From assembly GCF_026151205.1 (NCBI RefSeq), contig NC_087075.1:3322359-3386358 (forward strand): a stretch of DNA of 64,000 nt, in the 5' to 3' direction. Positions 33,990 to 64,000 of this stretch are shown in pieces. The position numbers and the translations under genes were made by a program. Under the pieces are notes generated by a model. That model made no database searches. It worked only from the letters and a program-made list of their open reading frames with translations, and had not been told where the DNA came from. How positions within the stretch are numbered: the stretch's first letter is position 1; each line of letters begins with the position of its first letter. The DNA is from Bolinopsis microptera (taxonomy: Eukaryota; Ctenophora; Tentaculata; Lobata; Bolinopsidae).

Positions 33990-33993
33990 TTAA

Positions 33994-35304: not shown

Positions 35305-35308
35305 TTAA

Positions 35309-36948: not shown

Positions 36949-37290
36949 ATCTTTCAGCTATAGCATTAAACTTGGCTCGGAATTCTTCAATGTTTTGATC
37001 ATTTCTTTCCCCGATTTGGTGAGGTTACTGGATGCAGTGTACCTAACATTTCAGTTTAATTATTAATTTTTAGAAATATCCTTGATAATGTGTGATGATT
37101 TGATTGGAAACTTTCATCAAACGAAAGTTGTGTCATTATTATTCGACTCGATTTGATTTTTAAATATTTCCCCTTAAAATGTGTATGGAAAATGTCCCTA
37201 CAATCTTCAATATCCTTTGAAAAAACAAGTAATTGTTGTCAAAAATTGAAATTTATTTGATTTATTGTGACCATCAAATATTTAGGTAGG
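36949..37290. other. Intergenic stretch before the prefoldin fragment
   Basis: AT-rich, nothing recognised. It may hold the 5' UTR or an intron end ('aaatatttag' just before 37287) of the prefoldin gene. Confidence 0.4.
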
Positions 37291-37458
37291 ATGGGTGCCG
37301 ACAAGGTAGACAAGGTAGACAGAGAACACAGGGGCATCCCTCAGGCAGTCTTTCTTGAAGATGTGGACAGTTACATGTCATCCACTACCCCTGAAAAGAA
37401 TGCAGCTGCAGTACTCAAAGATTTTGATGAACAACTCCAAAAGTACAAATACATGGAA
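37291..37458 (+). pseudogene. VBP1: Prefoldin subunit 3 (VBP1), N-terminal 56 residues, truncated by the repeat array
   Basis: From the ATG the frame gives GIPQAVFLEDVDSYM and then AAAVLKDFDEQLQKYKYME, the conserved start of prefoldin subunit 3 and its first coiled-coil helix. Prefoldin is a cytosolic hexameric chaperone that hands actin and tubulin to the CCT chaperonin. The family is usually about 190-200 residues; here similarity stops after KYKYME at 37458, and the next bases (TCCCATCACAGATG) are array intron sequence. There is no splice donor at the junction, so this is a rearrangement, an array insertion or a misassembly rather than an exon end. Confidence 0.85.
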
Positions 37459-37659
37459 TCCCATCACAGATGTTCGAAAGGAATTCCTGTGAATGAAATG
37501 CAACTATTGTTATGAACTACACCCGCACACACTTTGACACTTATCCCAATATTCAAATAAAGCGAACCATCCTAAAAGGGGTACTTCGAAATCATTAAAA
37601 CTGATTGCCAGACGGCTGAAACTTGCAGTCTATAAAATACTTGACTAAACTCGACTATT

Positions 37660-40600
37660 ACTTGATGATGATTGTGTTGGTGGCCAGTATCTGGAATCAA
37701 GTTCAAGTGGCTGTCAAGCCTGTCCGGCAGATCAATGAGAGTTTAGCAGCAAAACCGCTGACTTCTTCTGCACAGCATGTCCAGCTGACATAGAGGTAGC
37801 TCTGGTATCAGGAACACAAGAAAGTGACTGCACTGGAGTAGTTGTTTGTTTCCTAAAAATTGGGGGGAACGAAGGGTTTCATCGATCAATTTATTTTAAT
37901 CTTGATTGACAATAATGGTGCGAATAAACATAGAATGAAAATACTGAGCAACAAGCAAGTTTAGTTAATTTGTAAAATAATTGGTATTACTATACGTTTA
38001 GGAGGTCCCATCACAAGATGCTCGAAGAATTCCTGTATGAATGAATGACAACTATTGTAATCATGAACACCACCCGCACACACTTTGTCACTTATCCATA
38101 ATATTCAAATAAAAGCGAACCATCCTAAAAGGGTACTTCGAATCTTAAACTGCTTGGCCCAGCGGCCTGTAACTTGCAGTTCTATAAATTACTTGACTAA
38201 ACTCGACCTTATACTTGCAGAAGATTGTGTTGCGGGCAGTTATCTGGATCAGTCAAGTGGCTGTCAAGCCTGTCCGGCGATTCAATGGAGTTTGCAGCAA
38301 ACGCAGCTTCTACTGCACGGCATTGTTCCAGCGACAAAGAGGTAGACCTCTGGATCTGGAACACAAGAAAGTGCTGCTCTTTGTGTAAGTTGTGTTTTCT
38401 TAAAAATTGGAGGGACGAGGGGGTATCTGATAATTTATGTTAATCTTAGAATATGCAATAATGTGTGCGATTAAACATAGACTGATATTTCTGTACGTCA
38501 ACAAGCAAAGTTTAGTATTTGTACAATATATTGGTATTACTATACGTTTATGAGGTCCCATTCACAGATGCTCGAAAAGGAGTTCCTGTGATTGATGCAA
38601 ACTATTGTGTTGACCACACCGCACACACTTTGCCACTTATCCAATATTCAATTAAAAGCGAAATCCCTAAAAGGGTACTTCGAATCAAACTGCTTGCCAG
38701 CGCTGAACTTGCAGTTCTATTAAATACTTGATAATCTCGTCTATACTTGCAGAAGATTGGTTGCGGGCCAGTATCTGGATCAGTTCAAGTGGCTGTCAAG
38801 CCTGTACGGCGATCAATGTGAGTTTAGCAGAAACGCAGCTTCTACCTTGCACGGCATGTCCAGCTGATCAAGAGGTAGCCTCTGGATAGGAACACAAGAA
38901 AGTGACTTGCACATGGAGTAAGGTTGTTGTTTTTTTTCTTTAAAATTGGAGGACCGAAGGGGTTTCATCCTGAAATTTATTGTTAAATTCTAGAATGAAT
39001 AATGTGTGCGAATAAATCATAGACTCTGAAATACTGACGTCAACAGCAAAGTTTAGTATTTGTACATTAATTGGGTATTACTATTCGTTTATGAGGTCCA
39101 TCCAGGGCTCGAAAGGAATTGCTGTGATCTGAAATGCAAACTATTGTTTATGAACACCACCCGCCACAATTTGACACTTATACAATATCAAATAAAAGCG
39201 AACCATCCCTAAAAGGGTACTTCGAATCTTAGACTGCTTGCCTGCGGCTGAAACTTGCAGTTCTTTAAATACTTGGACTAACTCGACTATACTTGAGATG
39301 ATTGTGTTGCGGGCCAGTATCTGACAGTCAAGTGGCTGTTCAAGCCTGTCCGGCCAGATCAATGGGAGTTTAGACAGCATAACGAGCTTCTACCTGCACG
39401 CATGTCCAGCTGACAAGAGGGAGCCTCTGGATCAGAACACAAGAAAGTGACTGCACATGGAGTAAGTTGTTGTTTTCTAAAATTTGGGAGGGACCGAAGG
39501 GGTTCATCATGAAATTTATGTTATTTCTTAGAAAATGCAATAATGTGTGCGAATAAAAGTAGACTGAAATTACTGACGGCAACAAGCAAAGTTTTAGTAT
39601 TTGTACAAATAATGGTATTACTATACGTTTATGAGGTCCCATCAAGATTGCTCGAATGGAATTCCTGTGAATGAAAATGCAAACTATTGTATATGAACAC
39701 CCACCCGCACACACTTTGACACTTATCCAATATTAAATAAAAAGCGAAACCATCCTAAAAGGGTTACTTCGAATCTTAAACTGCTTGCCAGCGGCCGATA
39801 CTAGCAGTTCTATAAATACTTGACTAAACTCGACTATACTTGCAGAAAGATTGTGTTGCGGGCCCAGTTCTGGATCTGGGGGGGTCCCCAAAAGTGGTGT
39901 CAAGCCTGTCCGCAGATCAATGGAGTTTAGCAGCAAAAAAACCGCCAGCTTCTACCTTCACGGCATGTCCAGTGACAAAGCGGGTAGACTCTGGATCAGG
40001 AACACAAGAAAGTTGACTGCACATGGAGTAATTGTTGTTTCTAAAAATTGGAGGGACCGAAGGGTTCTTCCTGAAATTTATGTTAATCTTAGAAATGCAA
40101 TATGTGTGCGAATAAAATAGACTGAAAATACTGACGTCAACAAGCAAAGTTTAGTATTTGTTACAATAATTGTATTACTATACGTTTATGAGGGGTCCCA
40201 TCACAGATGCTCGAAAGGAAATCCTGTGAATGAAATGCAACTTTGTATATGAACACCACCGCTACACCACTTTTGACCACTTATCTTATTCAAATAAAAG
40301 GAACCATCCTAAAAGGGTACTTCGAAGCTTAAAACTGCTTGCCAGCGGCTGAAACTTGCACGTTCTATAAATACTTGGACCTACACTCGGACTATACTTG
40401 CAGAAGATTGTGTTGCGGGCCAGTATCTGGATCGGTCAAGTGGCTGTCAAGCCTGTCGGCAGATCAATGGAGTTTAGCAGCAAACGCAGTTCTACCTGCA
40501 CGGCATGTCCAGCTGAAAAGAGGTAGCCTCTGGATCAGGAACACATGTAAGTGACTGCACATGGTGTAAAGTTGTTGGTTTCCTAAAATATTGGAGGGAC

Positions 40601-43600
40601 CGAAGGGGTTCATCCTGGAATATTTATGTTTATCTTAGAAATGCTATAAATTGTGCGATTAACATAGACTGAAATACTGACGTCAACAAGCAATGTTTAG
40701 TATTTGGACAATAATTGGTATTACTATACGGTTATGATGTCCCATCACAGATGCTCGAAGGAATTCCTGTGATTTGAATGCAACTATTGTATATGAACAC
40801 CACGCACTCACTTTGACACTATCCAACTATTCCAAATAAAAGCGAACCCACCCTAAATGGGTTACTTTCGAAAAAATCTTAAACTGCTTGCCAGGCGGCT
40901 GAACTTGCAGTTCTTTAATTAACCTTGACTTAAACTCGACTATTACTTGCAGGTGATTGTGTGGGGACAGTATCTGGATCAGTCTGAGGTGGCTGTCAAG
41001 CTGTTCCCGCAGATCAATGGAGTTTAGCAGCAACGCAGCTTTACCTGCACGGCATGTCCAGCTGACAAAGTGGTAGCCTCTGGATCAGGAACACAAGGAA
41101 AGTGATGCACATGGAGTAAGTTGTTGTTCCTAAAAATTGGAGGGACGAAGGGGTTCATCTGAAAATTTATGGTAATCTTAGAAAGGCTAATATGTGTGCG
41201 ATAAACATAGACTGATTACTGGGACGTCAACAAGCAAAGTTTAGTTTTGTACATAATTGTATTACTATACGTTATGAGGTCCCATCACAGATGATCGAAA
41301 GGAATTCATCGTGGAATGAAATGCATCTATTGTATATATGAAACACCACCGCACACACTTGAACACTTATCCAATATTCAAATAAAAAGCGAACCACCTA
41401 AAAGGTACTTCGAATTCCTTAAAACTGCTCTTGCCAGCGGCTGAAACTTGCAGTTCTATAAATACTTGACTAAACTCGACTATACTGCAGTAGATTGTGT
41501 TGCGGGCCAGTATCTGGATCAGTCAAGTGGCTGTCAAGCCTGTCCGGCCAGATCAATGGGAGTTTAGCAATGCAAAACGCAGCTTCTTACTGCACGGCAT
41601 GTCAGCTGGACAAAGAGGTAGCCTCTGGATCAGATCACAAAGAAGTGATGCACTTGGAGTAAGTTGTTGTTTCTTAAAAATTGGAGGGACCGAAGGGGTT
41701 CATCTGATATTTATGTTAATCTTAGACATGCAATATGTGTGCGAATAAAATAGGACTGAAATATGACGTCAACAAGCAAAGTTTAGTATTTGTACAATAA
41801 TGGTATATTACTTATACGTTTATGAAGTACCATCAACAGATGATCGAAGGAATTCCTGTGAATGAAATGCAACTATTGTATATGAACCCACCCGCACACC
41901 ACTTTGACACTTATCCTATATTACATATAAAAGCGAACCATCCTAAAAGGGTACTTCGAATCTTAAACTGCTTGCCAGCGGCTGAAACTTGCGAGTTCTA
42001 TAATTTCTGCTAAACTGACTATTACTTGCAGAATTTGTTTGTTGCGGGCCAGTATCTGGATCAGTCAAGTGGCTGTAGAAAGCCTGTCGGCAGATCATGG
42101 AGTTTAGCAGCAAACGCCGCTTTCTCCTGCACTGCATGTCCTAAAGCTGTACAAGAGGTTAGCCTTGGATCAGGAACACTAGAAAGTGGATGCACATGGA
42201 GTTTGTTGTTGTTTCCAAAAAAATTGGAGGGGGAACGAAGGGGTTCATCCTTGAAATTTATGTTTAATCTTAGAAATGCAATAATGTGTGCGAATTAACA
42301 TTAGACTGAAATACTGAACGTCAACAAGCAAAGTTTAGTATTTTGTACAATAATTGGTATTTACTTTACGTTTATGAGGTCCATCTCAGATGCTCGAAAG
42401 AATTCCTGTGAATGAATGCAACTATTGTTTATGAACACCACCGCACACAATTTGGACACTTATCCAATATTCAAAATAAGCGATACCATCCCTAAAAGGG
42501 TACTTCGAATCTTAAACTGCATGCCAGCGGCTTGAAACTTGCCTGTTCTATAAATACTTGACTAAACTGAATATTACTTGCAGAAGATTGTGTTGCGGGC
42601 AGTATCTGGATCAGTCAAGTGGCTGTCAAGCCTGTCGGCAGATAATTGGAAGTTTGCAGCAAAACGCGCTTCTACCTGCACGGCTGGTCCAGACTGACAA
42701 AGAGGTAGCCCTCTGGAATCAGGAAAACACAAGAAAGTGACTGCACTTGGAGGTAGTGTTGTTTCCTAAAAAATTGGAGGGACCGAAGGGGTTCATCTGA
42801 AATTTTATGTTAATCTTAGAAATGCAATAATGTGTGCGATAAAACATAGACCTGAAAATACTGACGTAAACAGCAAAGTTTAGTATTTGTACATAATTAG
42901 GTATTACTATACGTTTATGAGGTCCCATCACAGATGCTCGAAAGGATTCCTGTGAATGAAAATGCAACTTATTGTATATGAACACACCGCACACCCCACC
43001 TTTGACACTTATCCAAAATTCAAATAAAAGCGACAACCATCCCTTAAAGGGTACTTCGAATCTCTTAAACTGCTTGCCAGCGGCTGAAACTTGCTGTTCT
43101 ATAAATACTTGACTAACTCGGGAATATAATTGCCAGAAGATTGTGTTGGGGCCAGTATCTGGATCAGTCAACATGGCTGGTCAAGACTGTCCGGGCAGAT
43201 CAATGGAGTTTAAGCAGCAAAAGCCAGCTTCTACCTGCACGGCATGTCCAGCTGATCAAAGAGTAGACCTCTGGATCTGGAACACAAGAAAGTGACGCAC
43301 ATGGGTAAGTTGTTGTTTCCTAAAAAATTCGGAGGGACCGAAGGGGTTCCTCCTGAAAAATTTTTTGTTATTCTTAGATATGCAATAATTGTGTGCGAAT
43401 AAAAATAGGACTGAAATATGACTCAAACAAGCAATGTTTAGTTTTTGTACAATAATTGGTATTAATATACGTTTATGATGGTCCCTTCACAGATGCTCGA
43501 AGGAATTCCTGTGAATGTAATGCAACTATTGTATTTGAACACCACCCGCACATACTTTGACACTTATCTAATATTCAAATAAAAGCGAACCATTCCCTAA

Positions 43601-46600
43601 AAGGGTATAATTCGAATCTTAAAACTGCTTGCCAGCGGCTGACTTGCAGTTCAATATAATACTGGACTAAACTCGACTAGACTTGCAGAAGATTGTGTTG
43701 CGGGCCAGTATCTGGATCGTTCAATGGCATGTCAAGCCTGTCCGGGGCAGATCAATGGAGTTTGCAGCTACGCAGCTTATACCTGCACGGCAATGTCAGC
43801 TGACAAAGAGGTATGCTCTGGATCAGGACACAAGAAAGTGTACTGCACATGAGGTAAGTTGTTTGTTTCTAAAAATTGGGAGGGACGAAGGGGTTTTCAT
43901 CCTGAAATTTAGTTAATCTTAGAAATTGCATTTAATGTGTTGCGATAACTAGACTGAAATACTGACGTCAACAAGCAAGTTTAGTATTTGTACTATAATT
44001 GGTATTACTATACGTTATGAGGTCCCTTCAACAGATGCTCGAAAAGGAGTCCTGTGAATGAATCAACTAATGTATATGAAACCCCACCCGCACACTCTTT
44101 GGGACACTTATCCAATATTCAAATAAATGCCGAACCATCCCTAAAAGGGTTCTTCGAATCTTAAACTGTTGCCAGCGGCTGATACTTGCAGTTCTATAAA
44201 TACGTGACTAACTCGACTATACTGCAGAAGATTGTTGTTGGAGGGCCTGTATCTGGATTCAGGTCAAGTGGCGGTCAAGCCTGTCCGGCTAGATCAATGG
44301 AGTTTAGCAGCAAACGCTGCTTTACCGCACGGAATGTCCAGCTGACAAAGAGGTAGCCTCTGGATCAGGAACACTAGAAAGTGACTGCACATCGGTAAGT
44401 TGTTAGTTTCTAAAAATTGGAGGGACCGAAGGGGTTCATCCTGAAATTTATGTTAATCTTAGAAATGCAATAATGTGTGCGAATATACATAGACTGAAAT
44501 ACTGACGTCAACAAGCAAAGTTTAGTATTTGTACAATAATTGGTATTACTATACGTTTATTGAGGTCCCATCACAGATTCTCGAAAGAAATTCTTGTGAA
44601 TGAAATGCAACTTGGTATATGAACACCACCGCTACACACTTTGACACTTATCAATATTCAAATAAAAGCGAACCATACTCTAAAAGGGTACTTCGAATCT
44701 AAACTGCTCTGCAGCGCTGAAAACTTGCAGTTCTATAATACTTGACTAAACTCGACTATACTTGCAAGAAGATCAGTGTTAGCGGGCCAGTTTCTGGATC
44801 AGTCAAGTGGCTGTTCAAGGCCTGTTCCGGCAGATCAATGGTGTTTAGCAGCAAAACGACAGCTTCTACCTTTGCCGGCATGTCCAGCTGACAAAAGAGT
44901 TTTGCCTCTGGATCAGGAACACCACTAGAAAGTGACTGCACATGGGTATGGTTGTTTTTCCTAAAAATTGGAGAGGGACCGGAAAGGGGTTCATCCTGAA
45001 ATTTATGTTAATCTTAGAAATTGCAATAAGGTGTGCGAATAAACATAGACTGAAATTCTGACGTCAAACAAGCAAAGTTTAGTATTTGTACAATATTTGG
45101 TATCTACTATAAGTTTATGAGGTCCCATCACTGATGCTCGAAAGGAATTCCTGGAATGAAATGCAACTATTGTATATGAACACCACCCGCACACACTTTG
45201 GTCACTTATCAATATTCAAATAATAGCGAAACCATCCCTAAAAGGGTACTTCGAATCTTTAAACTGCTTGCCAGCGGCTGAAACTTGCAGTTTCTATATA
45301 TACTTGAACTTAACTCGACTATATTGGCAGAAGATTTGTGTTGCGGGCCTGCCAGTATCTGGATCAGTCAGTGCTGTCAAGCCCTGTCCGGCATGATCAT
45401 GGAGTTTAGCAGCAAACGCGCTTCTACCTGCCACCGGCATTCAGCTGACCAAAAAGAGGTAGCCTCTGAGATCGGAACACAAGAAAGTACTGCACATGGA
45501 GTAAGTTGTTGTTTCCTAAAAATTGGTGGGACCGAAGGGGTTCATCCTGAAATTTATGTTAATCTTAGAAAGCATTTAATGTGTGGGAATAAAACTTAGA
45601 CTGTAATACTGACGTCAACAAGCAAAAGTTTTGTATTTGTACAATTAATTGGTATTCTAACGTATATGAGGTCCCTTCACATGTGCTCGAAAGGAATTCC
45701 TGTGATTGAAATGCAAACTATTGTTTATGAACACCACCCGCACACACCGTTGGACACTTATCAATATTCAAATAAAAGCGAACACATCCCTAAAAGGTAC
45801 TTCGAATCTTAAACTGCTTGCAGCGGCTGAAACTTGCAGGTTCTCATAAATTCTTGCGATAACTGACTATACTTGCAGAAGAATTGATGTTGCGGGCCAG
45901 TATATGGTTCAGTCAAGTGGCTGTCAAGCCTGTCGGCAGATCTAATGGCGTTTAGCAGCAAACGTGTTCTACCTGCACGGCATGTCCAGCGACAAAGAGT
46001 AGCCTTCTGGATCAGGAAACAAGAAAGTGACTGCACATGGAGTAAGTTGTTGTTTCCTAAAAATTGGAGGACCGAGGGGTTCATCCGGAAATTTAATGTT
46101 ATCTTTGATATGCAAATAATGTGTCGTAATAAAACATAGATGATAAATATGACGTCAACAAGCAAAGTTTAGTATTTGTATCATAATGGTATTACTATAC
46201 GTTTATGAGGGTCCATCACAGGTTGCTCGAAAGGATTCCTGTGAATGAAATGCAAACTATTGTATAATGAACACATCCCGCACACACTTTATGCACTTAT
46301 CCAATATTCAAATAAAGCGAACCATCCCTAAAAGGTTACTTCGATCTTAAACTGCTGCCTGCGGCTGATAACCTTGCAGTTCTATAAATACTTGACTAAA
46401 CCTCGATATACATTGCAGAAGATTGTGTTGGAGGGGCCAGTTCTGGATCAGTCAAGTGGCTGTCAGACCTGTCCGGCAGATCAATGGTAGTTTAGCAGCA
46501 AACGCAGCTTCTACCTGCACGGCATGTCCAGCTGACAAAGCAGTAGCCTCTGGATCAGGAACACAATGAAAGTGACTGCCACAGAGTAAGTTGTTGTTTC

Positions 46601-49600
46601 CTAAAAATTGGTAGGGACCGAAGGGTTCATCTGAAATTTATGATTAATCTTAGAATGCAATAATGTGTGTGCGAATAAACTTAGACTGATATACTGACGT
46701 CAACAAGCAAAACGTTTAGTATTTGTACAATATTGGTATTACTATACGTTTATGAGGTCCCATCACAGATGCTCGAAAGGAAGTCCTGTGAAATGAAATG
46801 CAATATTGTATATGAACAACACCCGCACACACTTTTGACACTTATCCAATATTCAAATATAAGCGAACCATCCCTAAAAGGGGACTTCGATTCTTAAATG
46901 CTTGCCAGCGCTGATAAAACTTGCAGTTTATAAATTATTGACTAACTCGACTATACTTGCAGAGATTTGTGTTGCGGGGCCTGTATCTGGATTCAGTCAT
47001 GTGGCTGCAGCCTGTCCGGCAGATCAATGGAGTTTAGCAGCAAACGCAGCTTCTTCCTGCACGGCATGGTCCAGTGGACAAAGAGGTAGCCTCTGGATCA
47101 GGAACACAAGAAAGTGACTGCACATGGAGTAAGTTGTTGTTTCCTAAAATTGGAGGGACCGAAGGGGTTCATCCTGAAATTTTGTTAATCTTAGAAATGC
47201 ATTATGGTGTGCGAAATTGACATAGAGAATTAACGACGTCAACAAGCAAAGTTTTGTATGTGTACATATAATGGTATTACTATACGTTTATAGGTCCCAT
47301 CACAGATGCTCGAAAGGATTTCCTGTGAATGAAATTGCAACTATTGTATTTGAAACACACCCGCCCACACACTTTACCCTTATCCATATTCAAATAAAAG
47401 CGAAAACCATCCCTAAAAGGGTATTCGAATTCTTAAACTGCTTGCACAGCGGGCTGAAACTTGCAGTTCTATAAATACTTGATTAAACTCGCTATACTTG
47501 AGAGATTGTGTTGCGGGCCTGTATCTGGATCAGTCACGTGGCTGTCAAGCTGTCGGCAGATCAATGGAGGATTTAGCAGCAAACGCAGCATTCTACCTTG
47601 CACGGCATGTCCAGCTGACAAAGAGGTAGCCTCCTGGATCAGGAACACAAGAAAGTGACTGCACTGGAGTAAGTTCGTTGGTTCCTAAATTGGAGGGACG
47701 GAAGGGTTCATCCCTGAAATTTATGTTTAATCTTAGAAATGCAATAATGTGTGGCGAATAAACATAGACTGAAAATACTGACGTCAACAAGCAAAGTTTA
47801 GTATTTGTACAATAATTGGTATTACTATACGTTTATGAGGTCCATCAAGAATGCTCGAAGGAATTCCTGTGAATGAAAATCAAACTATTGTAATGATACC
47901 ACCCGAACACACTTAGACACTTATCCAATATTCAAATAAAAGCGAACCATCCCTAAGGGTAACTTCGAATCTTAAACTGCTTGCCAGCGGCTGAAACTTG
48001 CATTTCTATAAATACTGTTGACTAACTCGACTATACTTGCAGAAGATTGTGTGTGCGGGCCAGTATCTGGCTCAGTAAGTGGCTGTTCAAGCCTGTCCGG
48101 AAGATCAATGGAGTTAGCAGCAAAAACGCAGCTTCTACCTGCACGGCTTGTCAGCTGACAAAAGTGTTGCATCTGGTTCAGGAACACAAGAAAGTGTCTG
48201 CACATGGAGTAGTTGTTGTTTCCTAAAAATTGGAGGGACCGAAGGGGTTCATCCTGAAATTATGTTAAAATTAGAAATGCAATAATGTGTGCGAATAAAA
48301 CATTAGACTGAAATACTGACACGTCAAACAAGCAAAGTTTAGTATTTGTACAATTATTGGTATTACTATTCGTGTATGAGGTCCCATCACAGATGTCGAA
48401 AGGAAATTCCTGTGAATGAAATGCAACTATTGTATATGAACAACACCCGCACCCACTTTGACACTTATCCAAGCATTCAATAAATAAAAAGCGAACCATC
48501 CCTAAAGGGTACTTCGAATCCTTAAACTGCTTGCAGCGGGCCTGAAACTTGCAGAGTTCTATAAATATTGACTAAAACTCGACTATACTTGCAGAAGATT
48601 GTGTTGCGGGCCAGTATCTGGTTCAGTCAAGTGGCTGTCAAGCTGGTCCGGCAGATCAATGGAGGTCGTAGCAGCTAACGCAGCTTCTACCTGCACGGCA
48701 GTCCAGCTGACAAAGAGGTAGCCTTGGATCAGGAACAAAGGAAAGTGACTGCCGCCCTCAACCCATTTTTTTTGGGGGGGGGTGTAAGTTGTTTGTTTCC
48801 TAACAATTGGAGGGACCGAAGGGGAAAAGGGGTTCATCATGAAATTTATGTTAATCTTAGAATTGCAATTGATGTGCGAATAAATAGACGCTTGAATAAC
48901 TGACGTCAACAAGCAAAGTTTAGTATTTGTACAATAATTGGTATTAATATACGTTTATGAGGGGCCCTTCAAAGGATGCTAGAATGGAATTCTGTAATGA
49001 AATGCAAAATATTGAATATGAACAACCACCCGCACACACTTTGACTCTTATCCATTATTCATAATAATGCGAACCATCCCTAAAAAGGGTACTTCGAATC
49101 TTAACTGCTTGCCAGCGCTGAACTTGCAGTTCTATTAATACTTGACTAAAACTCGATATACTTGCAGAGATTGTGTTGCGGGGCCAGTATCGGATCAGTA
49201 CAAGTGGCTGTCTAGCCTGTCCGGCAGATCAATGAGGAGTTAGCAGCAAACGCAGCTTCTACGCACGGCATGTCCAGCTGCAAAGAGGAGGCCTCTGGAG
49301 CAGGAACACAAGAAGTGACTGCACTTTGAGAGTAAAGTTGTTGTTCCTAAAAATTGGAGGGCCGAAGGGGTTCATCTGAAATTTATGTTAATCTTAGAAA
49401 TGCAATAATTGTGCGAATAAACATAGACTGAAATACTGGAGACGTCAACAAGCAAAGTTTAGTATTTGTACAATAATTGGTATTACTATACGTTTATGAG
49501 GTCCATTCACAGATGCTCGAAAAGGATTTCCTGTGAATGAAAATGCAACTATTGTATATGAACACCAACCGCTACACACTTTGACACTTATCCATATTCA

Positions 49601-52600
49601 AATAAAAGCGAAACCATCCCCTAAAGGTTAATTCGATTCTTAATATGCGTCCAAGCGCGGAAATAAAAACCCCTGCAGTTTATAAATTACTTGATAAAAT
49701 CGACTATACTTGCAGAAGATTGTGTTGCGGGCCTGTTTCTGTTCAGTCAGTGGCTGTCAGCCTGTCGGCAGATCAAATGGGTTTAGCAGCAAACGCAGCT
49801 TCTCCCTGCAGGCATGTCCAGCTGACAAAGAGGTAGCCTCTGGTATCAGGAACACAGAAAGTGACTGCTTGGAGTAAGTTGTTTTGTTTTCCTAAAATTT
49901 GGAGGGACCGAAGGGGTTCATCACCTGAAATTTTTGTTAATCTTGAAATGCAATAATGTGTGGAATAACATAGACTGAAATCTGACGTCCCACAAGCAAA
50001 GTTTAGTATTTGTACAATAATTTGGTATTACTATACGTTATGAGGTCCCATCACAGATGCTCGAAAAGGAATTCTGTGAATGAAATGCAACTATTGTATA
50101 TGAACCACCACCCGCACACACTTTGACATTTATCCAATAGTGCAAATAAAAGCGAAACCTTCCTAAAAAGGGTATTCGAATCTTTATAACTGCTTGCCTG
50201 CGGCTGCAACTTGCATTTCTATAAATATGACTAAACTCGATATGCTTGCAGAAGACTTGGTGTTGCGGGCCAGTATCTGATTCAGTCAAGGGGATGTTCA
50301 TAGCCTTGTCCGGCAGATCAATGGTGTTTGCAGGCAAACGCGCTTCCTACCTGCACGGCATGTCCAGCTGACAATAGAGGTAGCCTCTGGATCAGGAAAA
50401 CAAGAAAAGTGGACTGCACATGGAGTAAGTTGTTGTTTCCTAAAAATTGGAGGGACCGAAGGGGTTCATCCTGAAATTTTATGTTAATCTTAGAAATGCA
50501 ATAATGGTGCGTATAACATAGGACCTGAAATATGACGGTCAACAAGCAAAGTTTAGTATTTGTACTATAATTGGTTTATTACTCTACGTTTATGAGGTCC
50601 CATCACAGATGCTCGAAGTAATTCCTGTGAATGTAATGCAACTATTAGTATATGAACCACCACCCGCACATCTTTGACACTTTCAATATTCAAATAAAGC
50701 GAACCATTCCTAAAAGGGGGTACTTCGATCTTAAACTGCTTGCCAGGGCTGAAACTTGCAGTCTATAAATATTGACTAAACTCGTCTATACTTGCAGAAG
50801 ATTGTGTTGCGGCCTACCATGTATCGGATCAGTTCAATGTGGCTGGTCAAGGCTGTCGGCAGATCATGGCGTTTAGCAGCAAACGCAGCTTTTACCTGCA
50901 CGGCATGTCAGCTGACAAAGAGGTTAGCCTCTGATCAGGAAACACAAGGGAAGGTGACTGCCACATGGTGTAAGTTGTTGTTTCCTAAAATTTGGAGTAC
51001 CGAAGGGGTTCATCCTGAAATTTATGTTATCTTAGAAATGCCAATAATAGTGGGCGAATAATCATTGACTGAATACTGACGATCAACAAGCAAAGATTTG
51101 TACTTTGTACAATAATTGGTATTACTATACGTTTATGAGGTCCCATCACAGATGCTCGAATGGATTCCTGGTGAATGAAATGCAACTTATTGTATTTTGA
51201 ACACCACCGCACACCACTTGGACAACTTATTCCAAATTCAAATTAAAAGCGAATCCATCCCTAAAAGGGTACTTCGAATCTATAACTGCTTGCCAGCGGC
51301 TGAAATTGCGTTCTATATATACTTGACTAATAACTCGACTTTACTTTGCTAGAAGATTGTGTTGCGGGCCAGTTTCTGGATCAGTAAAGTGGCTGTCAAG
51401 CCTGTCAGGTGATCAATGGGTGTAGCAGCAAACGCAGCTTCTACCTGCACGGCATGTCCTGCTGACAAAGAGGTGCCTCTGGATTCAGGAACACAGAAGT
51501 GACTTGCACACTGGTGTAAGTTGTTGTTTCCTCAAAATTGGTGGATACGAGGGGGTCTATCTGAAATGTATGTTAATCTTAGAAATGCAATAATGTGGTG
51601 AGGAATAAACATAGACTGAATATACTGACGTCAACAAGCAAAGTTTAGTATTTGTTACAATAATTGGTATTACTAAACGTTAATGAGGTCCCATCACAGT
51701 GTCTCGAAAGGATTTCCTGTGTATGAAAGCAACTATTGTATATGAACACCACCCGGCACACACTTTGACACTTATCAATATTCAAATAAAAGCGAACCTC
51801 CTAAAGGGTACTTCGAATCTTAACTGATTGCCAGCGGCTGAAACTTGCAGTTCTATAAATTACTTGACTAAACTCGACTATACTTGCAGAAGATTGTGTT
51901 GCGGCGCCAGTATCGGGATCAGTCAAGTGGCGGTCAAGCTGTCCGGCAGATCAATGGAGTTTAGCAGCAAACGCAGCTTCTACCTGCACGGTTGTCAGCT
52001 GACAAAGAGGTTGCCTCTGGACAGGAACAAAGAAAGTGACCTGCCCACTGGAGTAAGTTGTTGTTTCCTAAAAATTGGAGGGACGAAGGGGTTTTCATCT
52101 GAAATTTATGGTTTAATCTTAGGAATGCAATATGTGTGCGAATAAACATAGACTGAAATACTGACGTCAACAAGCAAGTTTAGTATTTGTAAAATAATTG
52201 TATTACTATACGGTTTATGAGGTCCCCATCCCATCAAGATGCTCGGAAAGGAATTCCTGTGAATGAAAATTGCACTATTGTATATGAACAACACACGACA
52301 CTACACTTTGACACTTATCCCATATTCAAATAAAAGCGAACCATCCCTAAAAAGGGTACTCTTCGAATCTTAAACTGCTTGCCAGCGGCTGAAACTTGCT
52401 GTTCTATAAATACTTGATAAACTCGACTATACTTGCAGAAGATTGTGTTGGGGCCAGTATCTGGATCAGTCAAGTGGGCTGTCAGCCTGTCCGGCAGATC
52501 AATGGACGTTTAGCAGCAAACGCTGCTTTCTACCTGCACGGCTTGTCCAGCTGGACAAAGAGGTAGCTCTGGATCTGGAAACACAAGAACGTGATGCACA

Positions 52601-55600
52601 GTGGTGTAAGTTGTTGTTTCTAAAATATAGGAGGACCGAAGGGGGTTCATCCTGAATTTATGTTAATCTTAGAAAATGCAAGAAATGTGTGGGGAAATAA
52701 AACATAGACGGTATACTGACGGTCAACAAGCAAAGTTTTAGTATTTGTACAATAATTGGTATTACTATACGTTTATGAGGTCCATCACTGATGCTCGAAA
52801 GGAATTCCTGTGAATGAAATGAACTATTGTTTTGAACACCACCCGCACACACTTTGACACTGTATTCCATTATTCAAATAAAAGCAGGAAACCATCCTCT
52901 TAAAGGGTTCTTCGAATCTTAATCTGCTTGACCAGCGGCCTCGATAACTGCAGTTCTATAAATACTTGGACTATCTCGACTATACTTGCAGAAGATTGTG
53001 TGCGGGGCCAGTATCTGGAATCAGTCAAGATGGCTTCAGCCTGTCCGGCAGATCGATTGGAGTTTAGCAGCAAACGCAGCTTACTCACCGGCACGGCATG
53101 TCCAGCTGACAAAGAGGGTAGCCTCTGGATCAGGAACACAAGGAAAGTGATGCACTGGAGTAGTTGTTGTTCTAAAAATTGGGGACCGAAGGGGTTCCAT
53201 CCTGAATTTATGTTAATCTTAGAAATGCAATTGTGTGCGAATAAACATAGACTGTAAAATACTGACGTCAACAAAGCAAAGTTTAGTATTTGTACAATAA
53301 TTGGTATTACTATCACGTTTATGAGGTCCCATCACAGATGCTCGAAGGATTTCCTGTGTATGAAATGCCTATTGTTATGTAACTCCACCGCACACACTTG
53401 ACACTTATCCAATATTCACATAAAAGCGAACCTCCCTAAAAGGGGTACTTCGAATCTTAAACTGCTTGCAAGCGGCTGAAACTTGCTGTTCTATAATACT
53501 TTGACTAAAACTCGTCTATTCTTGCAGAAGTTTGTGTTGCGGGTCAGTATCTGGATCAGTCATGTGGCTGTCAAGCCTGGCCGGCGATCAATGAGTTTTG
53601 CAGCAAACGCAGCTTCTACCTGCACGGCATGTCCAGCTGACAAAGAGGTAGCCTTGGATCAGGAAATCACATGAAAGTGACAGCTCATGGAGGTTAGTGG
53701 TTGTTTCCTAAAAATTGGAGGGACCGTAAGGGGTTCATCTGAAATTTATGTTAATCTTAGATATGCAATAATTGTGTGCGAATAAACATAGGAGAAATTA
53801 CTGACGTCAACAAGCAAAAGTTTAGTATTTGTCAATATTTGGTATTACTATACCGTTTATGAGGTCCACATCTCAGTTGCTGAAGGTTTCATGTGAATGA
53901 AATGCAACTATTTTTATGAACACCACCCGCACACTACTTTGAACACTTTATCCAATATTCAAATAATAGAGAAACCATCCCTATTAAGGGTACTTCGAAT
54001 CTTAAACTGCTTGCCAGCGCGCTGAAACTGCAGTTCTATAAATACTTGACAACTCGACTATACTTGTGAAGATTGTGTTGCGGGCCGTATCTGGGATCAG
54101 TCACGTGGCCTGTCAAGACTTGTCCGGCAGATCAATGGAGTTTAGAAGCAAACGCAGCTTCTACTGCACGGCAAGTCCAGTGACAAAGGAGGTTGCCTCT
54201 GGATCAGGATACCACAAGAAAGTGAATGCACATGGAGTAAGTTGTTGTTTCCTAAAATTTGAGGGCAGGGACGAAGGGGTTCTCTGAAAATTTATTTTAA
54301 TCTTTGAAGGCAATAGGTGTGCGATAAACATAGACCTGAATACTGAACGTCAAACAAGCAAAGTTTTTAGTTTTGGTACAATATTGGTATTACTATACGT
54401 TTATGAGGTCCCATCACAGAGCTCGAAAGGAATTCCTGTGAATGAAATGCAACTATGTAATTTGACAACCACCCGCACACACTTTGACATGATCAATATT
54501 CAATAAAAGCGGATACCATTCCCTAAAAGGGTTATTCGATTCTTAAACTGCTTGCCATGCGGCTGAAACTTGCAGTTCTCTATAAATTTTACTTGACTAA
54601 ACTCGACTATACTTGCAGATGATTTGTGTTGCGGGCCAGTATCTGGAACAGTCAATGGTGTCAAGCCTGTCCGGCAGATCAATGGAGTTTAGCAGCAAAC
54701 GAGCTTCTACCTGCACGGCATGGGGGGGGGTCCAGAGGACTAAGAGGTAGCCTCTGGATCCATGGGAAACAGATAAGTGACTGCACATGGAGTAAGTGTT
54801 GTTTCCTAAAAATTGGAGGACGAAGGGGTTCATCTGAAATTTATGTTAATCTTAGAATGCATTAATGTGTGCGAATAAACATAGACTGAAATACTGACGT
54901 AACAAGCAATAGTTTAGTATTGTACAATAATTGGTATTCTATACGGTTTTTGGGTCCCATCACTGATGCTCGAAAGAATTCCTCGTGAATGAATAAGCAA
55001 CTATTGTATTTGAAACACCCGAACACACTTTGACCACTTATCAATATTCAAATAAAAAAGGCGAACCATCCTAAACAAGGGTACTTCGAATCTTAAACTT
55101 GCTTGCAGCGAGCTGTAAACTTGCGTTTCTATAAATTTCTTGACTAAATCTAGGGACTATACTTGCAGAAGGATTGTGTGCGGGCCTGTATCTGGAATCA
55201 GTCATGGTGGCTGTCAAGCCTGTCCGCATATCAATGGAGTTTAGCAGCAAAACGCAGCCTTTACCTGCACGGAATGTCCAGCTGACAAAGAGGTAGCCTT
55301 ATGGATCAGGAACACAAGAAGTGACTGCACATGGTAGTTAGTTGTTGTTTCCTTAAAAAATTGGTGGGACCGAAGGGTTCATTCATGAAAATTGATGTTA
55401 ATCTTAGAAATGCAATTGATATTGTGGTGCGGATAAACATAGACTGAAATATGAACGTAAACAAGCAAAGTTAAGTATTGTACAATAATTGGTATTACTA
55501 TACGTTTATGAGGTCCCTTCCCAGATGCTCGAAGGAATTCCTGTGAATGTTAATGCAACTATTGTATATGACACCCCCGTCACAACTTTGACACTTATCC

Positions 55601-58600
55601 AATATTCAAATATAAAGAGATCCATCCTAAAAGGGTACTTCGAATCTTAACTGCTTGCCGCGGTCTGAGACTTGCAGTTCTATATAAATACTTGACTAAA
55701 CTCGACTATACTTGCAGAAGTTTGGTTGCGGGCCAAGTATCTGGATCAGTCAAAGTGGCTGTCAAGCCTGTCCGGCAGATCAATGGAGTTGAGTTTAGCA
55801 GCACCGCATGCTTCTACTGCACGGCTAGTCCAGCTGACAAAGAGGTAGCATCTGGATCAGGATCACAAGATAGTGACTGACATGGAGTAAGTTGTTGTTT
55901 CCTAAAAAATTGGGAGGACCGATGGGTTCATCTGATAATTTATGTTATTTAGAAATTTGCATAATGTGTGCGAATAAACATAGACTGAAATACTGACGTT
56001 CAACAAGCAAAGTTTAGTATTTGTACATAATTGGTATTACTATACGTTATATGAAGTCCCCATCACAGATGCTCGATAAGGAATCCTCAGTGAATGAAAT
56101 GCACTTCTTGTATAATGAACACCACCCGCACCACTTTGACATTATTCCAATATTCAAATCAAAGCGAACATCCCTAAAAGGGTACTTCGACTTAAACTGC
56201 TTGCCAGCGGCTGATACTTGCAGTTCTATAAATACTGGACCTAAACTGAATATACTTGCAGAAGATTGTGTGGCGGGCAGTATCTGGATAGTCAAGGGCT
56301 GTAAGCCTGTCGGAGATTCAATGGAGTTTAGCAGCAAACGCTGCTTCTGCCTGCACGGCATGTCTAGATGACAAAGAGGTAGCTCTGGATCAGGACACAA
56401 GAAAGTGACTGCACATGGAGTAAGTTGTTGTTTCTAAAAATTGGAGGGACCGAAGGGGTTCTTCCATGGAAATTTATGTTATATCTTAGAAATGCCAATA
56501 TAATGTGTGAGCGAATTAACATAGATGGAACTACTGACCGTCACAAGCAAAGTTTAGTATTTGTACAATAATTGGTTTACTATTCGTTTATGGGGAAGGT
56601 ACCCATCACAGATGCTCGAATGGAATTCCAGTGAATGAATGCAAACTATTGTATATGAACACCACCGCACACACTATGACACTTATCCAATATTCATATA
56701 AAAGCGAACCATCCCTAAAAGGAGTTATTCGAATTACTTAAAACTGCTTTGCCAGCGGTGAAACCTTGCAGTGCTTAAATACTTTGATAACTCGACTATA
56801 CATTGCAGAGATTGTGTTGCGAGGCAGTATCTGGATCAGTCAAGTGGCTGTCAAGCCTGTCCGGAGAATAATGGAGTTTGCCAGCAAACGCAGCTTCTAC
56901 CTTGCAAGGCCATGTCCAGTCTGGACCAAAGAGGTAGCCTCTGATTCAGGAACACCAAGAAAGTGATGCACATGGAGTAAGTTGTTGTTTCCAAAAATTG
57001 GAGGGACCGAAGGGGGGTTTCTTCCTGAAATTTATGATTAATCTTAGAATGCAATAATGTGTGCGAATAAACATAGACTGAATACTGACGTCAACAAGGC
57101 AACGTTTAGTATTTGTACAATATTGGTATTACTATACGTTTTTGAGGTCCCATCACCGATGCTCGAAAGGAATTCTGTGAATGAAATGCAACTATTGTAT
57201 TATGAACTCCACACGCACACACTTGACATTATCCAATATTCTAAATAAATGCGAACCTCCCTAAAAGGGTACTTCGAATCTTAATGCTTGCCAGCGGTGA
57301 AACTTGCAGAGTTCTATAAATACTTGACTAAAACTCGGACTTACTTTGGCAGGAGATTGTGTTGCGGGCCAGTGCCAGTATCTGGATCAGTCAAGTGGCT
57401 GTCAAGCCTGTCCGGACAGATCACTGAGTTTAGCAAGCAAAGCAGCTTCTCCTACCACGGTTGTCAGATGACAAGAGGTAGCCTCTGGATCATGGAACAC
57501 AAGAAAGGGACTGCACATGGAAGTAAGTTGTTGTTTCCTAAAATGGAGGGACGACGGGGTTCATCCTGAATTTATGTTACATCTTATGTAATGCAATATG
57601 TGTGAGAATTAATCATAGATGAAATTACTGACGTCAACATAAGCATAAGTTTAGTATTTGTACAATAATTGGTATTACTATACGTTATGAGGTTCCCATC
57701 ACAGATGCTCGAAAGGAATTCTGTGATTGAAATGCAACTATTGTATATGAACACCACCAGCACACACTTTGACACTTATCCAATATGCTCAAATAAAAAG
57801 CTGAACCATCCCTAAAAGGGGTACTTCGAATCTTAAATGCTTTGCCAGCGGCTGAAACTTGCTGTTCGTAAATTTTTTTTTCTTGACTAAACCTCGTCTA
57901 TACTTGCAGAAGATTGTGTGCGGGCAGTATCTGGATCAGTCAAGTGGCTGTTCAAGCCTGTCCGCAGATCAAGGTGTTTAGCAGCAAAACGCAGCTTCTA
58001 CTTCACGGCCATGTCCAGCTGGGACAAAGAGGTAGCCTCTGGATCATGGAACACAAGAAGTGACTGCACATGGTAAGTAAGTTGTTGTTTCCTAAAATTG
58101 GAGGGACCGAAGGGGTTCATCTGAAAGTTTGTTAATCTTAGAAATGCAATAATGTGTGCGAATAAACAAGACTGAATACTGACTCAACAAGCAAAGTTTT
58201 AGTATTTGTACAATAATTGGTATTTACTATACGTTTATGACGGTCCCATCACAGATGCTCGAAAGGAATTCCTGTGAATGAAATGCAAATATTGTATATG
58301 AACAACACCGCACACACTTTGGACACTTATCCAATATTCAAATAAAAGCGAACCATCCCTAAAAGGGGGATACTTCGAATCTTAATCTGCTTGCCAGCGG
58401 CTGAAACTTGCGTTCTATAAAATACATTGAATAAAAATCGACTATACTTGCAGAAAGATTGTGTTGCGGGCCCAGTAGTATCTGGACAGTAAGGTGGCTG
58501 TCAAGCCTTGTCCGGCAGATCAATGGAGTGTGCAGCAAAGCAGCTTATTCCTGCACGGCATGGTCCAGCTGACAAAAGACAGGTAAGCCTCTGGATCAGG

Positions 58601-61600
58601 AACACAAGGATAAAGTGACTGCACTTGGAGTAAGTTGTTTGTTTCTTAAAATTGGAGGGACCGAAGGGGTTCATCTGAAATTTATGTTAATATTAGAAAT
58701 GCAATAATGTGTGCGAATTAACATAGACTGAAATACTGGACGTCAACATCGCTAAGTTTCGTATTTGTACAATATTTGGTATTACTATACGTTTATGAGG
58801 GTCCCATCACAGATGCTCGAATGGAAATCTGTGAATGAAATCGCAACTATTGTATATGAACACCACCGCACACACTTTGTTTTATCCAATATTCAAATAT
58901 AAAGCGAACCTTCCCTAAAAGGGTACTTCGAATCTTAAAATGCTTTTGCCCGCGGCTGTAACTTGCCAGTCTATAAATACTTGACTAAACTCGACTTACT
59001 TGCAGAAGTTTGTGTTTGCGGGCCAGTATCTGGATCAGTCAAGTGGCGTCAAGCCTGTCCGGCAGATCAATGGAGTTTAGCAGCAAAACGCAGCTTCTAC
59101 CTGCCGGCATGTCAGCTGACAAAGAGGTATGCCTCTGGTATCAGGAACAGAATGAAGTGATGACAATGGAGTAAGTTGTGTTTCCCTAAAAATTGGAGTG
59201 GACCGAAGGGGTTCATCTGGTGGAAAATTTATGTTAATCTTAGAAATGCAATAAGTGTGAAATAACATAGACTGATACTTGACGTCAACAAGCAAAGTTA
59301 GTATTTGTACAATAATTGGTATTACTATACGGTTTTTTATTAATGAGAGGTCCCATACAGATGCTCGAAAGGAATTCCTGTGAATGATAATGCAAAATAT
59401 TGTATATGAACACACCCGCGCCAACACTTTGAATGACATTATCAATATTCAAATAAAGCGTAACCATCCCTAATAGGGTACTTCGAATCTTAAACTGCTT
59501 GCCAGCGGCTGAAAACTTGCTAGTTATATTAAATATCTTGACTAAACTCGGACTATACTTGCAGAAGATTGTGTTGCGGGCCAGTATCTGGATCAGTCAA
59601 GTGGCTGTCAAGCCTCGTCCGGCAGATCAATTGAGTTTAGAGCAACGCAGCTTTACCTGCACGGACATGTCCAGCTGACAAAGAGGTAGCTCTGGTTCAG
59701 GAACAAGAATAGTGACTGCACAACTGGAGTAAAAGTTGTTGTTTCCTAAAAATTTGGAGGGACGAAGGGAGGTTCATCCTGAAATTTATGTTAATCTTAG
59801 AAATGAAATAATGTGTGGAATATAATACATAGACTGATATACTGGACGTCAATAAGCAAAGTTTAGTTATTTGTACAATAATTGGTATTACTTTACGTTT
59901 ATGATGTCCCATCCAGGAGTGCTCGAAAGGAATTCCTGTGAATGAAATGCAAAACTATTGTATATGAACACCACCCGCACACACTTAGACAGCTATCCAA
60001 TATTCAAATAAAAGCGAAAACCATCCCTAAAAGGTACTTCGGATCTTAAATGCTTGCAGCGGCTGAAACTTGCAGTTCTATAAATACTGATAAACTCGAC
60101 TATACTTGCAGATGATTGTGTTGGTTTGCGGGCCAGTATTACTGATCAGTAAAGGTGCTGTCACAGCCTGTCGGCAGATCAATGGAGTTTAGCAGCAAAC
60201 GCGCTTATACCTGCACGGCATGTCCAGCGACAAAGAGGTTTTTTAGCCTCTGGCTTAGGAACAAGAAAAGTGACTGCACATGGTAGTAAGTTGTTGTTTC
60301 CTAAAAATTGGAGGGACGAAGGGGTTCATCCTGAAATTATGTTAATCTTAAAATGAATAATGTTGTAGACGATTAAACATATGGACTGAAATACTGACGT
60401 CAACAAGCAAAGTTTTGTATTTGTACAATAATTGGTTTTCTATACGTTTATGGAGGTCCATCCAGTGCTCGAAAAGGAATTACTGTTGAATGAAATGCAA
60501 CTATTGTATATGAACACCACCCGCACACACTTTGACCTATCCCAATATTCAAATTAAATGCGAACCATCCCCTAAAAGGTACTTCGAATTCTTAAACTGC
60601 TTGCCTGCGGCTGAAACTTGCAGTTCTATAATTACTTGACTATACTCGACTATACTTGCAGATGTTGTGTGAGGGCCAGTATCTGGATCAGTCAAGTGGC
60701 TGTCAAGACTGGCCGGCAGATAATTGTGTTTAGCAGCAAACGCAGCTCTACCTTGCACGGCATGTCCAGCTGACAAAGAGGTTAGCTCTGGATCTGGAAC
60801 ACAAGAAAGTGATGCACATGGAGTAAGTTGTTGTTTCCTAAAAAAAATGGATGTGGACCGAAGGGGTTTTCATCCTGATTATGATAATCTTAGAAATGCC
60901 AAAAATGTTTATTTTTTGTGCGAATTAATTAGCTGAAATACTGACGTCAACATGCACAAGTTTAGTATTGTACAATTAATTGGTATATTACTATACGTTT
61001 ATGAAGGTCCCATCACAGATGCTCGAAGGAATTCCTGGTGAATGGAATGCAAAAATATGGGATATGAACAACCACCCGCTCACACTTTGACACTTATCCA
61101 ATATTTCAAATACAAAGCGAACCATCCTAAAAGGGTACTTCGAATCTTAACTGCTTTGCCGCGGGCTGAAAACTTGAAGTTCTATAATACATTGACAAAA
61201 CTCGACTTACTTGCAGAAGATTGTGTTGGGGCAGTTATCTGGAATCAGCAAGTGGGCTGTCAAGCCTGTCCGGCAGTTCCAATGGAGTAGAGTGTAGCAG
61301 CAAACGGCAGCTTCTACCTGCACGGCATGTACAGCCGACAAAGAGGTAAGCCTCTTGGATCAGGAAACACAAGAAAGTGGACTGCAAATGGAGTAAGTTG
61401 TTGTTTCCCTAAAAAAAATTGGAGGGCCGAAGGGGTTCATCTGAAATTTATGTATCTTAAGATAATGCAAATAATGCGTGCGAATAAACATAGACTGAAA
61501 TACTACGTCCACAAGCAAAGTTAGTTTTGTTCAATAATTGGTATTATATACGTTTTTGAGGTCCCCTATCAACAGATGCTTCGAAAGGAATTCCTCTGTG

Positions 61601-64000
61601 AATGGAAATGCAATATTGTATATGAACACCACCCGCACACACTGTGACATTATCACATTCAAAATAAAGCGAACCATCCCTAAAAGGGTACTTCGAATCT
61701 TAAACTGCTTGCCAGGCGGTCTGAAACTTGCAGTTCTATACATCTTGACCTAAACTCGATATATTGCAGATGATTGTGTTGCGGGCCAGTATCGGTTCAG
61801 TCAAGTGGCTGTCAAGCCTGTCCGGCAGATCAATGGAGTTTTGCAGCAACGCAAGATTCTAACCTGCACGGCATGTCCGCTGACAAAGAGGGTAGGCCTC
61901 TGGATCAGGAAACACAAGAAAGTGACTGCAACATGGAGTAAGTTGTTGTTTCCTAAAAATTGGAGGGACGGAAGGGGGTTCATCCTGGAAATTTCATGGT
62001 AATCTTAGAAAATTTTTTCAATAATGTGCTGCGAATAACATAGACTGATATCTGACGTCAACAAGCAAAGGTTTTAGTATTTGTAACAATAATTGGTATT
62101 ACTATACGTTTATGAGTCCATCACAGATGCTCGAAAGGAATTCCTGTGGTATGAAATGCAAAACTATTGTTATGAACACCACGCACACACTTTGACATTA
62201 TCCAATATTCAAAAAGCGACCATCCCTAATATAGGGTACTTCGAATCTTAAAACTGGCTTGACAGCGGGCCTGAAACTGCAGTTCTATAAATACTTGAAT
62301 AACTCGACTATACCGTGAGGAAGATTGTGTTGCGGGGCCAGTATCTGGATCAGTCAAGTGGCTGTCAAGCCTGTCGGCAGAATCAATGGTGTTTAGACAG
62401 CAAACGCAGCTTCTTCCTGCAACGGCATGTTCCAGTGACAAGAGGTAGCTTGGTCAGGAACACAAGAAAGTGACTGCACATGGAGTAGTTGTTGTTTCCT
62501 AAAAATGGAGGGACGAAGGGGTTCATCCTGAATTTATGTTAATTTAGAAATGATATAATGTGTGCGAAATAAATCATGACTGAAAATACTGACGTCAACA
62601 CGCAAAGTTTAGTATTTGTACAATAATTGGTATTACTATATCGTTTATGAGGTCCCATCACAGATGCTTCGAAAGGTATTCCTGTGAATGAAATGCAACT
62701 ATTGTAGAGAAACACACCCGCACACCTTGACACTTATCCAATATTCAAATAAAGCGAACATCTAAAAGAGGTACTTCGAATCTTAAACTGCTTTGCCAGC
62801 GGCTGAAACTTGCAGTTCTATAAATACTTGGACTAAACTCGACTATACTTGCTGAAAGATTGTGTTGGAGGGCCAGTATCTGGATCAGTCAGTGGCTGTC
62901 AAGCCTGTCGGCAGATCAATGGTGTTTAGAGCAAACGCAGCTTTAACCTGCACGGCATGTCCAGCTGACAAAGAGGTAGCCTCTGGATCGGAACACAAGA
63001 AAGTGACTGTACATGGAGTAAGTTGGTTGTTTCCTAAAAATTGGATGGACCGATGGGGTTCATACTGAAAATTTATGTTAATCTTTTAGAAATGCAATAA
63101 TGTGTGCGAATAAACATAGACTGAAATACTGACGTTCATCAAGCAAAGTTTGTATTTGCAATAAATGGTTTTACTATAGTTTATGAGGTCCCATCACAGA
63201 TGCTCGAAGGAATTCCTGTGAATGGTAATGAACTTTTGATATGAACACCACCGCACACCGTTGACACTTATCCAATATTCAAATAAAGCGAACCATCCCT
63301 AAAAGGGGTACTTCGAATCTTAAACTGCTTGCCAGCGGCTGAAACTTGCAGTTCTATAAATACTTGATAAACTAGACTAATACTTGCAGAAGATTGTGTT
63401 GGGGCCAGTATCTGGATCTGTCAAGTGGCTGTCAAGGCCTGTCCGGAGAATCAATGGAGTTTAGCAGCAAACGCAGCTTCTACCTTGCACGCATGTCCAG
63501 TGACAACAGAGGTAGCCTCTGGATCAGGACACAAGAAAGTGATGCACATGGAGTTATGTTGTTGTTTCCTAAAAATTTGGAGGGACGAAGGGTTCATCCT
63601 TGAAATTTATGTTAATCTTAGAATGCAATATGTGTGCGAATAAACATAGCTGAAATACTGACGTCAACAAGCAAAAGTTTAGTATTTGTACATTAATTGT
63701 ATTACTATCGTTTTGTGGGTTTTTTCCCATTCACACGTTGCTCGAAAGGAATTCTCGTGAATGAAATGCAAACTATTTTATATGAACACCACCCGCACAC
63801 ACTTTGACACTTATCCAATATTCAAATAAAAGCGAACCATCCCTAAAAGGGTACTTCGAATCCTTAAACTGCTTGCCAGCGGCTGAAACGTGCAGTTCTA
63901 TAAATCTTGACTAAACTCGACTATACTGCAGAAGATTGTGTTGCGGGCAGTATCTGGACTCAGTCACGTGGCTGTCAAGGCCTGTCCGCAGATCAATGGA
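37660..64000 (+). CDS. Array of ~48 Ephrin-receptor-like (GCC2/GCC3) cysteine-rich exons
   Basis: The majority sequence of each unit is an exon of 165 bp between TATACTTGCAG and a GTAAGT donor. It reads AA + 54 codons + A, so both introns are phase 1 and the join codon is AAA (Lys). The 55-residue module runs DCVAGQYLDQSSGCQACPAD, QWSLAANAASTCTACPADK, EVASGSGTQESDCTW, then K. The six cysteines have spacing C-x11-C-x2-C-x14-C-x2-C-x16-C, the pattern of Ephrin_rec_like/GCC2_GCC3 modules in extracellular receptors and matrix proteins. Disulphide-bonded repeats in a secreted or membrane protein are the expected role. Because each copy carries indels, only the consensus is readable. No start codon, signal peptide, membrane segment or final exon lies in the window. 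A decayed or satellite-amplified exon is an alternative. Confidence 0.75.
37833..63931 (+). other. Repeated ~382-bp intron of the array, with branch-site-like and AATAAA motifs
   Basis: Each spacer starts GTAAGTTGTTGTTTCC and ends TTGACTAAACTCGACTATAC TTGCAG. 'gactaaac' about 25 bases before the AG is a plausible branch site. Two AATAAA hexamers recur per spacer, in 'gcgAATAAAcatag' and 'attcaAATAAAagcg', with occasional losses that look like sequence error. The spacer is closed by stops in all frames in the consensus and has no coding resemblance. Confidence 0.7.

Follow-up and report, generated by a model that had tools for sequence, protein, structure and literature searches.

How a ctenophore chromosome comes to carry tens of kilobases of one repeated cysteine-rich exon, and whether such an array can encode a protein, is the question raised by a 64,000-nucleotide stretch of the Bolinopsis microptera genome (hereafter the window; contig NC_087075.1, here C4, positions 3322359–3386358). 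In the genome examined (264,652,675 bases, 232 contigs), window positions 37459–64000 hold, on the plus strand and in direct orientation, the tandem array of exon–intron units that had been claimed there, with 49 near-full-length units and partial ends. Successive units lie a median of 546 bp apart in the part of the array that was read, close to the ~547 bp first proposed. The array also continues past the window end, as had been expected, and is larger than first noted: it runs to C4:3455161 and measures 95,345 bp, of which the first 26.5 kb lie in the window. Dividing its length by 546 gives ~173 units (4.6 kb, C4:3446359–3450999, being unread); the period is 540 bp in clean copies and ~546 bp in the main C4 array. 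An array as long and uniform as this one excludes chance as its origin. We consider it probable that it is a protein-coding exon array encoding a giant surface protein, whose modules have been diversified by selection.

The clean units bear out the view of each module as one exon with its own intron. The exon is splice-bounded and symmetric (165 bp, AG/AAGATTG...TGGA/GTAAGT, slashes marking the boundaries; phase 1-1), has six cysteines and is followed by an intron of ~375 bp. Sixty-one of the 62 clean exons examined are open with six cysteines, and 60 of these 61 have the GT donor at the expected place, the last being open without that GT. This count of 61 leaves aside a C8 exon (4899) with an in-frame five-amino-acid insertion, a broken edge unit on C3, all noisy C4 units, the C12a hits 4581–4741, of which one contains a stop, and an incomplete C12a copy (9307–9372). 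Matches to the module occur on C1–C8 and C10–C13 (150 scored of 619 candidates), and the consensus exons of eight loci align without gaps in 28/28 pairs, their introns carrying insertions or deletions in most pairs. Tandem symmetric units with an open frame, as in a coding exon variable number tandem repeat (VNTR) of the LPA KIV-2 type, were found, with the broken C3 edge exon as the exception. A satellite devoid of coding meaning was rejected for the clean copies on account of their intact frames on several chromosomes. A mobile intron, or introner, is not supported by the intron matches scored, 40 of 356 candidates, all of which lie in module arrays.

The proposed Ephrin-receptor-like identity was checked with Pfam profiles, and three consecutive modules pass where a single one fails. 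Against PF07699 (Ephrin_rec_like, cut-off 23.1 bits), one module scores 20.8, three modules 36.7 and P0001, an annotated protein encoded on C10, 55.5; against PF23091 (TNFR_ELAPOR1_6th, cut-off 33.2 bits), the values are 27.4, 63.4 and 58.9. Judged by these profiles, the module is an Ephrin_rec_like/TNFR-like domain contained in a single exon. A sequence search of the PDB gave no match at E<=0.01, and an Rfam search of the window at gathering thresholds gave no hit. The structure predicted for the six modules of P0001 comes from a low-depth alignment of two sequences (mean pLDDT 75.6, pTM 0.39), so that a rod shape cannot be claimed. In Foldseek, the best matches of this model are chains of the Chlamydomonas mastigoneme filament (PDB 8wa2, E 1.6e-8), followed by weaker matches to ELAPOR1 (9vql) and TNF-receptor structures, but the TM-scores of the best matches are 0.05–0.26 on this low-depth model.

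The C4 array itself is noisy. Compared with the clean unit, its units carry 4.1% substitutions, 2.4% deletions and 3.6% insertions (157 units), about 10% of the bases per unit being erroneous. Substitutions are nearly equal in exon (3.85%) and intron (4.18%), and of the 108 noisy exons aligned from their first base, only 7 keep the frame without a stop. Equal divergence of exon and intron with loss of frame, the pattern named in the original prediction as contrary to it, is thus nominally present inside the array, but it is caused by sequencing error; clean copies keep their frames with few exceptions. The open majority exon that had been read from the array also holds, since the consensus of 159 noisy units and the clean unit agree over the whole 165-bp exon; a single intron base differs, no further substitution reaches 13%, and deletions amount to 14–19% at seven positions. 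The noise is sequencing error on a very uniform array, and its dominance makes selection tests inside the array impossible. According to the excerpted text of the genome publication, the assembly was built with PacBio libraries, wtdbg2, HiRise, TGS-GapCloser and Pilon, the project libraries being named as CLR and HiFi with species-specific use unspecified (PMC10232365). Such an assembly is compatible with reads left unpolished where a repeat made a gap, and the noisy stretch probably represents raw reads inserted into a gap. A second block, upstream of the main array at about C4:3311782–3324114, begins with seven clean full units (540-bp period, 0.05% substitutions), the next 15 units being poor (13.7% substitutions).

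The comparison of exon and intron rates suggested in the original prediction was made on clean copies. Frame preservation came out as anticipated; what had not been expected is that exons differ more than introns in 25/28 pairs among the eight locus consensuses, mostly by amino-acid changes. This combination of exon over intron divergence and nonsynonymous excess, as accelerated exon evolution would give, has as exceptions the pair C10–C12b and two practically identical pairs, C4–C13a and C13b–C1. When C13a and C1 are left out as near-duplicates, the best tree of the six remaining consensuses has 46.5 nonsynonymous (N) changes per 125 sites, 5.5 synonymous (S) changes per 37 sites and, in the introns, 40 changes per 370 sites. 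The N rate exceeds the intron rate with p=4e-10 and the S rate with p=0.026; an intron-only tree instead gives p=0.0019 for N vs S. All these p-values are guides only, because changes are not independent under gene conversion. At the level of single units, N:S is 63:8 between loci and 13.5:9.5 within loci (Fisher p=0.002; 36 distinct of 42 units). With an expected N share of 0.759 from the intron mutation spectrum, this corresponds to a between-locus excess (p=0.0056) and a within-locus deficit (p=0.08). The unit tree used 42 of the 46 listed units, a length rule having dropped C4_12850, C13_5286, C10_15309 and C10_19714; it is built without 6/24 C10, 1/5 C12b, 2/5 C12a, 1/2 C1, 2/3 C11 and 1/3 C3 units, C8 and the downstream C4 unit, and the divergence tests do not include the loci of C2, C5, C6, C7 and most of C3. 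Another tree of all units, with those at array edges (N 143.3, S 28.7, intron 919 over 370), was discarded, the trailing edge sequence being non-homologous. One exon on C3 differs from its neighbour at 16/165 sites (14 N, 2 S), and the two introns there show 2 mismatches and one gap. We read these patterns as suggesting positive selection on modules between loci, and purifying selection together with homogenisation inside most arrays, gene conversion being possibly involved.

Downstream of the array, the last clean module exon (C4:3454706–3454870) is followed by a 471-bp intron and a TSP1 exon (3455342–3455518; PF00090, 36.5 bits vs a cut-off of 21.6) in phase 1-1. Beyond it come many Ig-type exons, a stretch that resembles Sushi but stays just below the Pfam cut-off, and a further exon of Ephrin_rec_like type (46.3 bits); the series closes at 3471298, the end of a hydrophobic exon that by eye is probably transmembrane. 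The proteins P0007 (from a 3,956-base contig) and P0008 are relatives of this Ig part, with strong matches to Ig families. From this exon order we infer a giant type I surface protein, made from a single transcript. One symmetric phase 1-1 exon with its intron would have been amplified in tandem to about 173 copies, most likely via unequal crossing-over between identical units; spliced together, the C4 exons would encode a module region of ~9,500 residues, with TSP1, many Ig domains and a transmembrane helix following it towards the C-terminus. As a guess, the N-terminus may come from an N-domain exon that lies 16 kb upstream of the C4 arrays. Related genes on other chromosomes contain fewer copies of the module. 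Units appear homogenised within most arrays, and exons have diverged between loci, and between C3 neighbours, mainly by amino-acid change, the introns staying nearly identical; positive selection has probably acted on the modules as it does in recognition, adhesion or other interaction proteins. The original reading was right on module, phase and domain, and the huge repetitive extracellular protein that it proposed is likely. The Ig gene downstream of the array has an inverted copy, tail to tail with it, at C4:3481.4–3495.7 kb (L049, L050).

The module also occurs in sister genes elsewhere in the genome. On C10, the exon for the start of P0001 comes first; 24 modules, all open, and 13 copies of a ~106-residue domain follow, and retroelement frames lie in some of the gaps. 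The repeated domain is related to the N-terminal part of P0008 and to P0011 of Mnemiopsis. C3 has 24 module matches among those scored, followed by a cysteine-bearing exon whose Sushi-like look has no Pfam support. P0002 and P0003 come from contigs of 1,031 and 1,304 bases, which leave no room for the introns; in both, the module is combined with an N-terminal domain and a tail that is hydrophobic. In P0003 a hydrophobic start is followed by the N-terminal domain, a single module and the tail. Exons of P0003 type are found on C1 and C8, where the donor of the N-domain and the acceptor of the tail are in phase 1, matching the module. The phase of the module junction is thus supported by P0002 and P0003, with nothing equivalent across the C4 array. 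P0002 has two modules vs one in the near-identical P0004 ("isoform X2"), which suggests, from these two sequences, that module inclusion is variable. The N-terminal domain, for which no Pfam family was found in P0003 and P0004, is hugely amplified genome-wide (150 scored matches of 405 candidates, e.g. C5:22187035–22187436).

The C4 array might instead be a satellite-like, unexpressed expansion that neighbours a working receptor gene or sits in one of its introns, with few or none of the ~173 exons spliced. Extreme copy number, uniformity and retroelement-rich surroundings would all suit such an expansion, yet the 159 noisy units share one consensus with an intact exon, and intact clean exons flank the noisy stretch on both sides. 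The last C4 module exon can be spliced to TSP1, no signal-peptide-like start being seen by eye between the two, and on C10, where retroelements have inserted, all 24 exons, spread over 24 kb, have remained open; P0001, on the other hand, the annotated C10 protein found, has 6 modules and an end that by eye reads like intron. Several further results weigh against a spliced giant gene. No transcript or annotated protein spanning the C4 array or the array–TSP1 junction was found, and neither P0007 nor P0008 covers the array, the gene model of P0008 containing a single module and nothing that matches TSP1. No C4 signal-peptide exon was identified, signal peptides and transmembrane stretches being judged by eye. 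With Pfam, one C4 Sushi stretch falls just below the cut-off (20.3 vs 20.7) and the other is unmatched. Two C10 "Ig-like" exons tested singly had no match, so that this label is used by relation only; the Sushi label of C10 and C3 exons and the Ig label of single C10 exons, which Pfam does not recognise, were withdrawn. Finally, the 62nd clean exon, at the upstream array edge on C3 (L052, C3:7372127–7372668), is disrupted by two indels, an insertion of 8 bp and a deletion of 1 bp, next to an intact intron, as a silent array could show. Taking both sides into account, we regard a silent C4 array as unlikely. It is more improbable still that the copy number is an assembly product, raw reads having filled a gap in an array that is truly much shorter or longer. 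The assembly did employ long-read gap closing, and the error-rich borders at window 37459 and near C4:3454390 are abrupt; since the array sequence is probably raw reads in a gap, the figure of ~173 depends on the assembly. Every unit, however, has the same orientation (SMRTbell hairpin read-through would yield alternating strands), clean units stand at the right end of the array and in the left block, and runs of 24 modules occur also on C3 and C10.

The contrast between exons and introns could likewise have a cause other than positive selection, namely gene conversion between loci that homogenises introns, or constraint on the introns. Introns are almost identical across chromosomes (96–100% identity in the 40 scored matches; 0–6.6% difference across locus pairs), and certain exon states recur in different loci, as exchange would produce. 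Synonymous sites, however, change about as fast as introns (0.150 vs 0.108 in the six-consensus tree, p=0.29), which confines the excess to nonsynonymous sites, and N:S is unequal between and within loci, although conversion may still contribute. Selection on the modules has its own difficulties: C10–C12b shows the opposite pattern (exon 8/165, intron 24/364), introns vary more than exons inside C10 (54 vs 9 variable sites), overall rates for the 36 distinct units lie closer together (N 0.61, S 0.47, intron 0.41), S counts are small and any tree is approximate under conversion. We nonetheless think it rather unlikely that conversion or intron constraint explains the contrast, and prefer positive selection on modules between loci.

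The kind of array is already known; its scale and pattern are unusual. In the parts of the literature available to us, the kringle IV type-2 coding VNTR of LPA (5.6-kb units, 1–40 per allele; PMC11462820) is likewise a coding module tandemly repeated within one gene and difficult to sequence, but the C4 array has 0.54-kb units, ~173 as assembled, and a single-exon module. Spider silk genes (Argiope MaSp2, Flag) have iterated near-identical introns, for which a role in homogenisation through unequal crossing over has been proposed (PMC9779670, PMC3522626, as excerpted), and share with our case regular introns and several related loci. Silk introns are reported in these excerpts to diverge rapidly between genes, whereas the ctenophore introns are almost the same and the exons diverge; unlike silk repeats, the ctenophore module is cysteine-rich. 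Coding regions of venom gene families also change unusually fast, as far as the abstracted text goes (PMC2711939, PMC6062510), but venom genes are separate duplicates and the ctenophore case concerns repeated exons inside surface-protein genes. Closer at hand, P0012 of Mnemiopsis leidyi (961 aa, ACHWQZ_G003239) has a run of the same kind of module, differing in that its modules, about ten by eye, are mutually diverged. Among the open-licence ctenophore papers listed for tandem exon repeats, these domain names and allorecognition, no title or abstract beginning describes the array, and "ephrin" is absent from the portion of main text seen of a paper on the Mnemiopsis immune repertoire (PMC11797021).

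Provided that it is transcribed, the array would rank, to our knowledge, among the longest series of near-identical single-exon domains within one gene, and it illustrates how an extracellular protein can grow to giant size. Exon over intron divergence between loci points to selection on modules and raises the question of recognition molecules in ctenophores; we know of no variable receptor system described for them. Ctenophores are placed as sister to other animals (PMC10232365, as excerpted). A doubtful, speculative extension is that the arrays form a ctenophore recognition system of exon cassettes, in which variable and very long Ig/TSP1 surface receptors would serve for self, mate, prey or microbe. 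Near-identical introns would then sustain recombination in the arrays, and with it rapid change in the number and order of modules, and selection would diversify modules between genes.

The rest of the window contains the following features. Positions 65–1756 (plus strand) hold three diverged or noisy units (~72% identity), the 3' end of the second array block. Positions 1757–37458 (no strand assigned), rich in retroelements and satellite, separate the two array blocks and could be a large intron within one gene. This stretch includes a 91-bp tandem repeat (14846–18044; 35 copies, 97% matches) and, at 20956–23769, 32942–34033 and 35216–36106 on the minus strand, frames resembling by eye retroelement reverse transcriptase and endonuclease; positions 32900–34000 have 39 other copies at 99–100% identity among the matches listed. 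Positions 28886–31200 are 2.3 kb of TCC-rich low-complexity DNA with strong strand skew. Adjoining the left edge of the array, 36200–37458 has a full-length 97% copy 144 kb upstream (C4:3214308–3215580), hinting at a local duplication or a misplaced contig.

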